DNA from: Maritimibacter fusiformis
GTDB taxonomy: Bacteria > Pseudomonadota > Alphaproteobacteria > Rhodobacterales > Rhodobacteraceae
Direction: 5' to 3'
NCBI RefSeq assembly: GCF_008086115.1
Contig: NZ_VSIY01000001.1
Location: 62,001 to 126,000 of the forward strand
DNA length: 64,000 nt
Shown here: one piece after another, positions 43,612 through 63,715 of the stretch
Layout: each line of letters opens with the position of its first letter
Position numbering within the stretch: the stretch's first letter is position 1
The notes under the pieces: model-generated
The model's database searches: none
What the model was told of the DNA's origin: nothing
What the model saw: only the letters and a program-made list of their open reading frames with translations
Made by a program: the position numbers and the translations under genes

Positions 43612-43635
43612 GGGGCCTCCTCCCAGGGGCTTTAT

Positions 43636-43649
43636 TGAACGCTTGTTCA
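43636..43649. promoter_or_regulatory. Candidate TetR-type operator upstream of ivd
   Basis: TGAACGCTTGTTCA is an inverted repeat with perfect 5-bp arms TGAAC/GTTCA and a 4-nt centre, 25 bp before the ivd start. It resembles the GAAC-centred sites of TetR-family regulators of acyl-CoA and branched-chain amino acid catabolism. No such regulator gene is in the window. It could equally be used on the plus strand upstream of pyrC; assignment is inferential. Confidence 0.45.
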
Positions 43650-43727
43650 TTTCTAGGCGCGCGCCCGAGTCGGGTCAAGCACGATTGGCTCTGGCCCCCT
43701 GCCCCGGGCTGCGCTATTTCAGCCCCG

Positions 43728-44768
43728 ATGACCGAGAAACTGACGCTCCGCCGCCCCGACGACTGGCACCTGCATTTGCGCGACGGGGCCATGCTGCGCG
43801 CCGTTCTCCCCGAGACCGCGCGCCATTTCGCCCGCGCCATCGTGATGCCGAACCTCGTGCCGCCGGTGGTGACGGGGGCCGATGCCGCCACCTATCTCGA
43901 ACGCATCCTCGCGGCCCTGCCCGAGGGCATGGCATTCACGCCGCTGATGACGCTCTACCTGACCGAACAGACCGACCCGGCGGATGTGCGCGCGGCGGCG
44001 CAGAGCGGGCTTGTCACGGCGGTCAAGCTCTACCCGGCCGGGGCCACCACCAACTCGGCCTCGGGCGTGCGCGATTTCGACCGGGTGCGCGGCGTGCTCG
44101 AGGTGATGGCCGAGATCGGGTTGCCGCTCTGCGTGCATGGCGAGGTGACGACACCCGAGGTCGACATCTTCGACCGCGAGGCGGTGTTCATCGAGACCGT
44201 GCTCGACCCCCTGCGCCGGGCGACGCCCAGCCTGCGCGTGGTGATGGAGCATATCACCACGAAGGACGGCGCCGACTACGTGCGCGCGGGCGGCGACGAC
44301 ATCGCGGGCACGATCACCACGCATCACCTGATCATCAACCGCAACCACATCCTGGTCGGCGGGATCAGGCCGCATTACTACTGCCTGCCGGTGGCCAAAC
44401 GCGAGGAACACCGGCTGGCGCTGCGCGCCGCCGCCACCTCGGGGGATGCGCATTTCTTCCTGGGCACCGATTCCGCGCCGCACACCGACGCGCTCAAGGA
44501 ACACGCCTGCGGCTGTGCTGGGGTGTTCTCGGCCACCAACACGATGTCCTGCCTGGCCGAAGTGTTCGACCAGGACGGCGCGCTGGGGGCGCTGGAGGCG
44601 TTCACGTCGCTCAATGGCCCGGCCTTCTACGGGCTGCCGGCGAATGACGAGACCATCACGCTGGTCAAGGGCGACCCCGTCGCCTATCCGAAAAAGATCG
44701 AGACCGGCGATGGCCCGGTGACCCTGTTCGACCCCGGTTTCGCGCTGCATTGGCGGGTGGAGGCCTGA
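43728..44768 (+). CDS. pyrC: Dihydroorotase (class II)
   Basis: Cyclises carbamoyl-aspartate to dihydroorotate in pyrimidine synthesis (346 aa, zinc enzyme). [20 protein letters not shown] holds the first metal histidines, [20 protein letters not shown] near residue 98 the carboxylated lysine, and [16 protein letters not shown] near residue 170 and [20 protein letters not shown] near residue 245 the remaining ligands. ATG 43728 is chosen; the frame extends to 43635, but that upstream part is the promoter/operator region of ivd. It is followed by repeat copy B and pyrE. Confidence 0.95.
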
Positions 44769-44772
44769 GTGC

Positions 44773-44850
44773 AGGGGGCGCTGCCCCCTACGTTCAGTTT
44801 GCCAAGGCAAACTGAACGCCACCCCCGGAGTATTTCGGCCAAGATGAAGG
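44773..44850 (+). repeat. Composite interspersed repeat copy B (two hairpins plus GAGTATTT module)
   Basis: Three parts in order: AGGGGGC-GCT-GCCCCCT hairpin (44773-44789); CGTTCAGTTTGCC and its exact reverse complement around AA (44791-44818, 13-bp arms); and GAGTATTTCGGCC then AAGATGAAG (44828-44849). The same three parts, inverted, lie at 60001-60074. The element fills the pyrC-pyrE gap, and its final AAGATGAAGG sits 7-8 nt before the pyrE ATG, where it may serve as ribosome site. Confidence 0.8.
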
Positions 44851-44857
44851 ACCACGC

Positions 44858-45538
44858 ATGATCCCCGCCGCTTTCCCGCCCAAGGATGAAATCGCCCGCC
44901 TGACCGCCCGGATGCTGCTGGAAATCGGCGCGGTCAATTTCCGGCCCGAAGACCCGTTCATCCTGGCCTCGGGCCTGCCCTCGCCCACCTATATCGACTG
45001 CCGCAAGCTGATCAGCTATCCGCGCATCCGCAGCGTGCTGATGGATTTCCTCGCCGTCACGGTGATGCGCGAGGCCGGGTTCGAGGCGTTCGACAACATC
45101 GCGGGGGGCGAGACGGCAGGTATTCCGTTTGCCGCCCTGGTGGCGGAGCGGCTTGCGTTGCCCATGACTTACGTTCGAAAGAAGCCCAAGGGCTACGGCA
45201 GGAACGCCCGGATCGAGGGCGCGATGGGCGAAGGCCAGCGGGTGCTGCTGATCGAGGATCTGACCACCGACGGCGGCTCCAAGCTGAGTTTCGTCGACGC
45301 GATTCGCGACACCGGGGCGACCTGCGGGCACACGGCGGTCATCTTCTATTACGACATTTTCCCCGAGACCGAGAAAACTCTTGGGGATCATGGGGTTCGC
45401 CTGCATCATCTGGCGACGTGGTGGGATGTGCTGGCCGAGGCACGCGCGCATGGCGCCTTTGACGAGGCCACGCTGGCCGAGGTCGAAACCTTCCTGAACG
45501 CACCGCGCGCCTGGCAGGATGCGCATAAAAAAGCCTGA
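44858..45538 (+). CDS. pyrE: Orotate phosphoribosyltransferase
   Basis: Joins orotate to PRPP, giving orotidine 5'-phosphate (226 aa). [20 protein letters not shown] near residue 38 is the orotate-side segment, [20 protein letters not shown] near residue 78 and [16 protein letters not shown] near residue 105 bind substrate/pyrophosphate, and [20 protein letters not shown] near residue 130 is the PRPP motif. Spaced from pyrC by a repeat element but on the same strand, so probably co-transcribed. Confidence 0.95.
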
Positions 45539-45618
45539 ACATCGGCACCGTTGGGCGGAAGGGCGCGCAATATCGGCCAAGTCCCTCGGCTGATCCCACC
45601 AGATGTGGTAGGGTGAAC

Positions 45619-45638
45619 TTGTGCACAGGTCATCCACA
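45619..45638. promoter_or_regulatory. Two DnaA-box-like sequences upstream of dnaB
   Basis: TTGTGCACA (45619-45627) and TCATCCACA (45630-45638) lie 60-80 bp before dnaB; the second differs from the canonical TTATCCACA at one base. The rest of the gap 45539-45698 holds no gene. Two near-matches can arise by chance, so the regulatory reading is weak. Confidence 0.3.
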
Positions 45639-45698
45639 GGAACATACATTTTGCACCCGGCACCCGGTTTGCCTAAACCGACGCCCTGAGGGGACAGC

Positions 45699-47192
45699 AT
45701 GAACGAAATCCGCGCAATCCAGAACCAGGGCGACGCGGCCGGCGAAGACGCCGCCGACGTGATGCCGCACAACATCGAGGCCGAGCAGCAGTTGCTCGGC
45801 GCGATCCTGACCAACAACGACGTCTATGACCGGGTGGCCCAGATCATCCGGCCCGAGCATTTCTATGATCCGGTGCATGGCCGCATCTACCAGATCGCGG
45901 AAGAGCGGATAACCGCCAACATGCTGGCGTCGCCGGTGACGCTCAAGGCCTACATGGCCGATGACGAGGGGTTGAAAAGCCTCGGCGGCGCGGCCTACCT
46001 GGCACGGCTGGCGGGTGCCGCGATCTCGTCCTTCGCGGCGCGTGACTATGCCCAGATGGTCTATGAGATGCATGTGCGCCGCCAGCTCATGCATCTTGGC
46101 GCCGACATTTCCGCCAAGGCCGCCAAGATGGAGGCCAAGGGCGACCCGAAAGAGCAGATCACCGAGGCTGAACAGGCGCTCTACAAGCTGGCCGAGACCG
46201 GCAGCGCCACCACCGGGTTCCAGAGCTTTCTGACCGCCGTGACCGATGCGGTGCGGGTTGCCAACGCGGCCCAACAGCGCGGCGGCGGGCTGGCGGGGAT
46301 TTCGACCGGGCTGACCGATCTCGACAAGAAGCTGGGCGGGCTGCATCCCTCCGACCTTCTGATCCTCGCCGGGCGCCCTTCGATGGGCAAGACCTCGCTG
46401 GCCACCAACATCGCCTTCAACATGGCGCGCGCCTACAAGCGCGGCAAGCGGCCCGATGGCAGCGAAGGGGCGATCAACGGCGGCGTGGTCGGGTTCTTCT
46501 CGCTCGAGATGTCCGCCGAGCAGCTTGCCACGCGGATCCTGTCGGAAGCCTCCGAGGTTCCCTCCGAGCAGATCCGGCGCGGCGACATGACCGAGGGCGA
46601 GTTCCGCCGCTTCATCGACGCCGCCAAGGCGCTGGAGGCCTGCCCGCTCTATATCGACGACACGCCGGCGCTGCCGATCAGCCAGTTGGCCGCCCGCGCG
46701 CGCCGCCTGAAACGCGAACACGGGCTGGATGCGATCTTTGTCGACTACCTGCAGCTTGTCCGCCCCGCCACCGCCAAGGACAGCCGGGTGAACGAGGTGT
46801 CTGAGATCACCCAGGGCCTGAAGGCCATCGCCAAGGAACTCGACGTGCCGGTGGTGGCACTGAGCCAGTTGTCGCGCCAGGTCGAGAACCGCGAGGACAA
46901 GCGCCCGCAATTGTCCGACCTGCGCGAATCCGGCTCGATCGAGCAGGACGCCGACGTGGTGATGTTCGTGTTCCGCGAGGAATACTATGCCGAACGCGAA
47001 CAGCCCTCCGAGGACAAGCTCGAGGAAATGGCCGCCTGGCAGGACCGGATGGAGCGGCTGCACGGCAAGGCCGAGGTCATCATCGGCAAGCAGCGCCACG
47101 GCCCGATCGGCAACGTCGAACTCAGCTTCGAAGGCCGCTTCACCCGCTTCGGAAACCTCGTGAAATCCTGGCAGCAGGGCGACGGGTTCTGA
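45699..47192 (+). CDS. dnaB: Replicative DNA helicase DnaB
   Basis: Hexameric 5'-3' helicase that unwinds DNA at the replication fork (497 aa). MPHNIEAEQQLLGAILTNND opens the N-terminal collar domain. The RecA-like core has GGLHPSDLLILAGRPSMGKT (Walker A) near residue 215, FFSLEMSAEQLATRILSEAS near residue 265, LDAIFVDYLQLVRPAT (Walker B) near residue 345, and ALSQLSRQVENREDKRPQLS near residue 385. No intein is present. It follows pyrE after a 160-bp gap and is followed by a 22-nt palindrome. Confidence 0.97.
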   Translation: MNEIRAIQNQGDAAGEDAADVMPHNIEAEQQLLGAILTNNDVYDRVAQIIRPEHFYDPVHGRIYQIAEERITANMLASPVTLKAYMADDEGLKSLGGAAYLARLAGAAISSFAARDYAQMVYEMHVRRQLMHLGADISAKAAKMEAKGDPKEQITEAEQALYKLAETGSATTGFQSFLTAVTDAVRVANAAQQRGGGLAGISTGLTDLDKKLGGLHPSDLLILAGRPSMGKTSLATNIAFNMARAYKRGKRPDGSEGAINGGVVGFFSLEMSAEQLATRILSEASEVPSEQIRRGDMTEGEFRRFIDAAKALEACPLYIDDTPALPISQLAARARRLKREHGLDAIFVDYLQLVRPATAKDSRVNEVSEITQGLKAIAKELDVPVVALSQLSRQVENREDKRPQLSDLRESGSIEQDADVVMFVFREEYYAEREQPSEDKLEEMAAWQDRMERLHGKAEVIIGKQRHGPIGNVELSFEGRFTRFGNLVKSWQQGDGF

Positions 47193-47218: not shown

Positions 47219-47240
47219 ACGCCGCCCCTAGGGGCGGCGT
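47219..47240. terminator. Perfect 22-nt palindrome between dnaB and convergent gene
   Basis: ACGCCGCCCC-TA-GGGGCGGCGT is exactly self-complementary. On the minus strand a TTTT run follows the stem, which suits termination of the small secreted-protein gene at 47269-47655. On the plus strand no good T-run follows, so dnaB may use it only in part. Confidence 0.65.
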
Positions 47241-47268
47241 CCCTGTTCTCTATCAGTCTGGAGCCGCT

Positions 47269-47655
47269 TCAGAAGCTCTGGTAGCAGGCAACCGCCCGTC
47301 CACCCAGCCCCGCGACGATGCCGATCACGTGCATCTGCCCGTTGGGCGACACCTGCGTCACCTCGGTTCCCTCGACATCGATCATTACCCGCTCGCCAGC
47401 GGCCAGTCGGGCCTCGATGTCGGCAAGCAGCGCGGGATTGTCGACGTAAGCGATCAGGCCGAATCCACCAGGCAGTTCGCAAGTGGCCGTGTAGGTGATC
47501 GGCTTGTCATTCGGCGCCTCGCTCGAGCCTTCGTATTTGGGCGGCTCGTTACCGTTGCCGGGTGGCCCGTCCCCGTCTCCGGGCGGAATGCCCTGAGCCA
47601 TCGCGGCACCGGCGAGCATTGCCAGAACCGCCGCCTATTTGAAGGTGTTTTTCAT
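47269..47655 (-). pseudogene. Small secreted protein with stop codon in its signal peptide (paralogue of the next gene)
   Basis: From ATG 47655, with GGAGGAAGAC just upstream, translation gives MKNTFK, then TAG at 47637-47635, then AAVLAMLAGAAMAQG in the same frame and about 100 further residues. Without the stop this would be a normal signal peptide and a 128-residue secreted protein. The mature part (TATCELPGGFGLIAY, VMIDVEGTEVTQVSPNGQMH, ending ACYQSF) parallels the intact paralogue at 47875-48261. The open frame from internal ATG 47619 lacks a ribosome site and has too short a leader. Recent nonsense mutation, sequencing error or suppressor readthrough are the options. Function unknown. 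Confidence 0.7.
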
Positions 47656-47689
47656 GTCTTCCTCCGTTCTGTTCTGCCATGCTCTCTGC

Positions 47690-47719
47690 ATTGGCGTGTC
47701 GATCTCTCGACGCGCCAAT
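47690..47719 (-). promoter_or_regulatory. Long stem-loop in the 5' leader of the broken secreted-protein gene
   Basis: ATTGGCGTGTCGA and TCGACGCGCCAAT pair over 13 positions (one G-U/T-G mismatch) around a TCTC loop, about 35 nt upstream of the ATG at 47655. A perfect 12-nt palindrome TGATCCGGATCA lies further up at 47747-47758. The stem-loop would be transcribed in the leader on the minus strand and could regulate translation or decay; unproven. The rest of 47656-47786 has no gene. Confidence 0.4.
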
Positions 47720-47786
47720 TGTTTCATTTTTCGTGGTTTCTGTCATTGATCCGGATCAGAACCAGATCAACGTCACCCCCCCAAAA

Positions 47787-47820
47787 ATGCCAAGGCCCGA
47801 AGCTGACCGGGCCTTGGCAT
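47787..47820 (-). terminator. Rho-independent terminator of the intact secreted-protein gene
   Basis: ATGCCAAGGCCCG and its exact reverse complement CGGGCCTTGGCAT form a 13-bp stem around an 8-nt loop. On the minus strand the stem runs into TTTTT, 55 bp after the stop of the gene at 47875-48261. Confidence 0.8.
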
Positions 47821-47874
47821 GCCACGGTTCGCAAGCGCGGCAAACGTGACTTGCCACCGCGTCCCCTGGCGGGT

Positions 47875-48261
47875 TCAGAATGTCTGGTAACAAACCACCG
47901 GACGCCCGCCCGGCCCGTCGACCACGGCGATCACCCGCATCTGGCCGTCGGGCGAGACGCCGGTCACGCTGGTCCCCTCGACATCCGCCATCACCGCCTC
48001 TCCGGCGTTCAGGCGAGTGCGGATCAGGTTGGCAAGCCGGGCACTTTCGGGAAAGGCCATCAGGCCGAAACCGCCTTCGGTTTCACAAGTCGCGGTCAAG
48101 TCCAACGGCGTGTCGTTGGGCGCTTGTGGAACGACCAGGATCTTTTCGCACTCCTTTTCGCCCTCCTTGCATTGCGGCGCCTCGATGCCGGCTGCCGACG
48201 CAATGGCGCCGATGCTGGCAAAGGTCGCAAATGTGGCGGAAAACTTGAGAATGTTCATCAT
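47875..48261 (-). CDS. Small secreted protein, unknown function (intact tandem paralogue)
   Basis: Protein of 128 aa with a signal peptide (MNILKFSATFATFASIGAIA, then SAA at the probable cleavage site) and a mature domain with four cysteines. TATCETEGGFGLMAFPESAR, VMADVEGTSVTGVSPDGQMR and the end VCYQTF are shared with the neighbouring broken copy, so the pair arose by tandem duplication. No family recognised. Either of two adjacent ATGs (48261, 48258) follows GAGGGGTT. It has its own strong terminator and lies downstream of bioY on the same strand but behind the bioY terminator. Confidence 0.75.
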   Translation of the reverse strand: MMNILKFSATFATFASIGAIASAAGIEAPQCKEGEKECEKILVVPQAPNDTPLDLTATCETEGGFGLMAFPESARLANLIRTRLNAGEAVMADVEGTSVTGVSPDGQMRVIAVVDGPGGRPVVCYQTF

Positions 48262-63532: not shown

Positions 63533-63715
63533 ATGTCCGGCGCGCGGCGGCTGTTTCTGTGGCTGTTGGCGGCGCTATCGGCGGCAGCGGCGATCTGGGT
63601 TCTGGTGGCCGCGATGCGGGCCGAGGCGCTGAGCGGACAGGTGTTTTTTGCCGTCCTGCCGCTGCTCATGCTGTTCTCGATCGCCTGGCGCGGCCTGTCG
63701 GACAAGGACGACTGA
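63533..63715 (+). CDS. Small two-span membrane protein
   Basis: Protein of 60 aa starting MSGARRLFLWLLAALSAAAA, with two hydrophobic helices (LLAALSAAAAIWVLVAAM; GQVFFAVLPLLMLFSIAWRG) and an acidic end SDKDD. ATG 63533 lies 8 bp after the corrinoid protein stop, with a weak ribosome site. The longer open frame upstream lies inside the corrinoid gene. No family recognised. Confidence 0.5.
   Translation: MSGARRLFLWLLAALSAAAAIWVLVAAMRAEALSGQVFFAVLPLLMLFSIAWRGLSDKDD

Follow-up and report, generated by a model that had tools for sequence, protein, structure and literature searches.

According to Belinky et al. (2021, PMC7918605), in-frame stop codons are widespread in bacterial genes, and many of them are argued to lower expression rather than to mark pseudogenes; an identical stop was required in at least two genomes in order to reduce sequencing error. 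The locus described below resembles these cases in its in-frame TAG that is followed by an open, coding-like frame, but differs in that its stop is found in one genome instead of at least two. It likewise resembles the ordinary nonsense-inactivated tandem paralogue, with a single stop near the start, an intact sister gene next to it and no recoding machinery found, except that here an orthologue displaying the ancestral sense codon is lacking. Neither the loss of one paralogue of a pair to a nonsense change nor a single-base error in an assembly is anything unusual.

Within the window, i. e. the whole stretch of 64,000 nucleotides from Maritimibacter fusiformis that was analysed, the interrupted gene and its neighbour comprise the following features, as read from the sequence, its translation and, for the intact copy, frame and alignment:

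47269–47655, minus strand: interrupted paralogue, encoding MKNTFK, an amber as codon 7 and then 121 open codons
47655–47653, minus strand: start codon ATG
47635–47637, minus strand: in-frame TAG (amber) that separates the charged start of a signal-peptide-like leader from its hydrophobic core
47661–47665, minus strand: GGAGG ribosome-binding site, 5 bases 5′ of ATG 47655
47271–47269, minus strand: TGA, the natural end of the frame
47269–47619, minus strand: frame from the internal ATG 47619, 116 amino acids, with the leader MLAGAAMA and a weak ribosome site 5′ of it
47875–48261, minus strand: intact tandem paralogue of 128 amino acids with its own signal-peptide-like N-terminus

The interrupted copy translates into MKNTFK, the stop and then AAVLAMLAGAAMAQG, continuing to a terminal CYQSF, and the translated frame holds no second stop between the TAG and the TGA at 47271–47269. 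Sequence and translation confirm the ribosome site and place ATG 47655, MKNTFK and the TAG (47637–47635) exactly where the initial annotation had put them. As in a nonsense pseudogene, an in-frame stop truncates a recognisable gene. The coding score 3′ of the TAG is modest though positive (0.13), compared with 0.26 for the intact copy and 0.45–0.60 for the three genes at 43635–47192.

The two copies align without gaps over their C-terminal 82 residues, 50 of which are identical. Base differences within this domain number 20, 24 and 41 at codon positions 1, 2 and 3, respectively, and the two genes use different codons for 22 of their 50 shared residues. This pattern, together with the synonymous codon differences, points to two diverged coding genes instead of a chance resemblance. 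Considered with the dN and dS between the copies (0.37 and 0.81 by NG86; 0.36 and 1.26 by YN00), which average over the whole period that has passed since the duplication and therefore do not date the stop, it indicates that both copies evolved as coding sequences. The match of a full mature domain to the intact neighbour, as originally proposed, thus holds for the C-terminal 82 residues, but not for the linker that joins the signal-peptide-like part to the domain; this linker is poorly alignable and comprises 26 residues in the interrupted and 23 in the intact copy. Two cysteines are common to both domains, located in TATCE and CYQ[ST]F, and may form a disulphide in an exported protein. The domain also constitutes the sole long direct repeat (147 nt, 71%). 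On these sequence comparisons, the best reading is that both genes are real and arose by an old tandem duplication.

By eye, the leader consists of the charged MKNTFK, a 13-residue core with a mean hydropathy of 2.14 and a small-residue cleavage site, AMA-Q. It may serve as an export signal, and the encoded protein is probably a small, exported envelope protein. Neither paralogue matches a Pfam family, the best PHROGs match has an E-value of 0.12, and among PDB sequences there is none at E ≤ 1. The AlphaFold models are poor (mean pLDDT 43.0 and 56.5), and with these models Foldseek returned no match at E ≤ 0.001, the best being 0.9. The sole NCBIfam match, a weak one to MarB (NF007508; E 0.0053), covers residues 11–56 of the intact copy and spans its signal-peptide-like part; membership of MarB was rejected, as the intact copy scores 16.6 bits where 87 are required and the interrupted copy has no match.

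Relatives were sought at several levels. A protein search for orthologues in 61 genomes, including the own genome, matched only its own two copies. With a two-row profile, again only the own-genome copies were retrieved from 394 genomes of the family (393 others), 385 of the class (384 others) and 398 of the phylum (397 others), samples that overlap and represent larger groups, scoring being limited to 11 candidates or fewer for most of the genomes listed; at the genus level, the sample was the own genome alone. Searches of a genome contig collection (searched twice), viral contigs, plasmids and phages yielded no relative outside the own genome either, an absence that is not proof, since these collections may omit records very near the source genome and the contig scans rest on short seed peptides. 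The neighbouring dnaB provided a further handle, its C-terminal part being found in 36 of 37 genomes. When both paralogues were compared by tblastn with 30 dnaB loci, one of them the own locus, the best matches outside the latter had E-values of 0.20 and 0.75 and are taken as chance. These loci, in 15 of which dnaB lies on the minus strand, extend 1.4–1.5 kb past the dnaB match, apart from a single one with only 0.24 kb (L056). Look-alike frames beside dnaB, defined as ATG frames of 80–180 residues that carry a cysteine close to their end, with at most two listed per locus, were absent outside the own locus among those listed for the 30 loci. One other genome (G003, contig C1) contains a second match to the DnaB C-terminus at 1183165–1183257 (71% identity over 31 residues, E 1.9e-8), at a distance of about 1.5 kb from its dnaB and past the gene (match 1184743–1185324, locus L057), possibly a partial duplication of the gene end. 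As far as the searched collections go, the two-gene family at 47269–48261 appears to be lineage-specific, although short secreted proteins may diverge so fast that relatives escape recognition.

Three candidate transcription signals surround the pair:

47787–47820, minus strand: 14-pair hairpin followed by TTTTT, the probable terminator of the intact copy (sequence and fold)
47718–47746, minus strand: sigma-70-like promoter match ATGACA-17-AACAAT, 9 of 12 positions, 5′ of the interrupted copy (consensus match only)
47219–47240, minus strand: palindrome ACGCCGCCCCTAGGGGCGGCGT followed by TTT, a possible terminator between the interrupted copy and the convergent dnaB (sequence)

There is one promoter-like match 5′ of the interrupted copy, where 0.1 would be expected from shuffled sequences. 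Since the hairpin between the two genes is a probable terminator, the interrupted copy is likely transcribed separately, and the consensus matches suggest that it probably has its own transcript. The hairpin at 47787–47820 is absent from the listing of the consensus terminator scan, which includes a plus-strand site at 47229–47245 that overlaps the palindrome at 47219–47240 and does not give the latter in that form. On the minus strand at 47746–47759, the near-palindrome CTGATCCGGATCAA deviates by one mismatch from TTGATNNNNATCAA, which we take to be the FNR-type box consensus. It is situated at the promoter-like site and would lie about 42 bases 5′ of the transcription start, if the latter is 7 bases past the second hexamer. 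CTGATCCGGATCAA is the sole such match in the window, with 0.63 expected by chance and one present in 45 of 100 shuffles. An inverted repeat with a 13-pair stem occupies 47690–47719 in the leader region of the interrupted copy; it is terminator-like on the plus strand and may act as an operator or else end transcripts that come from the opposite strand.

How the TAG is to be understood depends on whether it is read as a stop at all. Genome-wide reassignment or suppression of amber in this organism is hardly credible: beyond the in-frame TAG itself nothing speaks for it, apart from an incomplete tRNA list, and RF1 is present with 486.6 bits, over the family cut-off of 423.25. Moreover, TAG is in use as a terminator of ordinary genes, ending five of the 56 script-predicted genes of the window, among them birA and nuoB. 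With TIGR00121, the birA product scores over the cut-off in a match that reaches position 232 of the 235 in the profile, after which it ends at TAG, and coaX starts 9 bases 3′ of this TAG in the same frame; as fused BirA-CoaX families exist, the example is strong, not absolute, and both BirA and CoaX score far below the cut-off of the fused family NF009862. An amber suppressor tRNA, which the initial annotation had suggested looking for, finds no support: the Rfam tRNA model detects 42 tRNA genes, and ARAGORN, applied to all of them (30 loci and the other 12), assigns the anticodon CTA, TTA or TCA to none, in a list that must be incomplete because it contains no tRNA-Tyr. The genome is estimated to be 94.78% complete, and the tRNA-Tyr gene perhaps lies in the missing part of the assembly. 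A CUA anticodon-loop pattern is seen at eight places versus 30 for the reversed control; as suppressor candidates these were discarded, since one is tRNA-Arg(TCT) and ARAGORN recognises no tRNA at the other seven. Pyrrolysine-type decoding by PylS with tRNA-Pyl fares no better, as the PylS model gives a match of 20.6 bits, below the cut-off of 178.15. Such matches also appear in 13 of 14 control genomes, in one of them over the cut-off, and cross-matching among class II synthetases would explain their wide occurrence. The stop might also precede the gene proper, if translation truly begins at ATG 47619, as was initially considered, and the protein is not exported via its leader. This start is in frame and gives 116 amino acids, and reinitiation there, 15 bases past the TAG, is conceivable. 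The resulting leader, however, has 8 residues up to the likely cleavage site and carries no positive charge, though it is hydrophobic (mean 1.80), and the purine-rich site before it is weak compared with the GGAGG before ATG 47655. For an exported protein this is a poor start, and we deem it very improbable.

If TAG is a stop in the main frame, the main rival to a real lesion is a base-calling or consensus error in the draft assembly (17 contigs), with the gene intact in the organism. We rank this explanation second; it is unlikely, with a chance that is by no means negligible. A single base accounts for everything, the frame has no other stop, and a consensus error would give the same picture as a real nonsense substitution. 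Against it, such errors do not appear to be frequent in the window: a scan for in-frame stops with 30 open, coding-like codons on each side, which is blind to frameshifts and to stops this near a gene start, returned four places, namely the birA end, two that are antisense to predicted genes and one at 63713. At the latter, on the plus strand, an in-frame TGA lies between coding-like flanks of 30 codons just past a predicted gene end, and may mark either a further interrupted gene or the boundary of two neighbouring genes that share a frame. Ranked third, and rather improbable, is a genuine but leaky stop, where low-level readthrough or reinitiation yields some secreted protein and the amber serves to hold expression down. 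The frame that stays open past the TAG to its natural end would suit this explanation, as would the many bacterial in-frame stops for which Belinky et al. (2021, PMC7918605) argue a non-pseudogene, expression-lowering role. However, none of the searched genomes except its own contains the gene, as opposed to at least two genomes in the cases of those authors, no suppressor tRNA was found, PylS is matched only below the cut-off and RF1 is present.

Recent nonsense inactivation of one paralogue, with the other left intact, is the most likely reading of the locus and one that we consider reasonably probable. The gene of a small, probably exported protein would have undergone tandem duplication long ago, and the downstream copy would then have acquired one recent amber substitution in its signal peptide, past the charged start but ahead of the hydrophobic core. 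Ribosomes loading at the strong site would produce a six-residue peptide and stop. With termination after six residues, little or no exported protein would be made from the interrupted copy, which may be silent. The upstream copy, intact and probably separately terminated, would retain whatever role the pair has. The original proposal, a nonsense codon that interrupts the signal peptide in one member of a tandem pair, fits the sequence, and one substitution does suffice for the TAG. The base itself, which gains no support from orthologues, as none were found, is regarded here as probably real and recent. The clean frame dates the lesion weakly and excludes only a long-decayed relic, because just 31 of the 1089 single substitutions possible 3′ of the TAG, about 1 in 35, create a stop.

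As it stands, the finding matters little, and its mild interest lies in a protein pair present in no searched genome but its own. There is a slim prospect that a lineage-specific secreted protein is throttled here by a leaky amber in its signal peptide, in which case one gene of the pair would supply an ordinary product and the other a product that is low-level or condition-dependent. Should the stop prove to be both retained and leaky, the locus would become a clean test case for the control of expression by in-frame stops.
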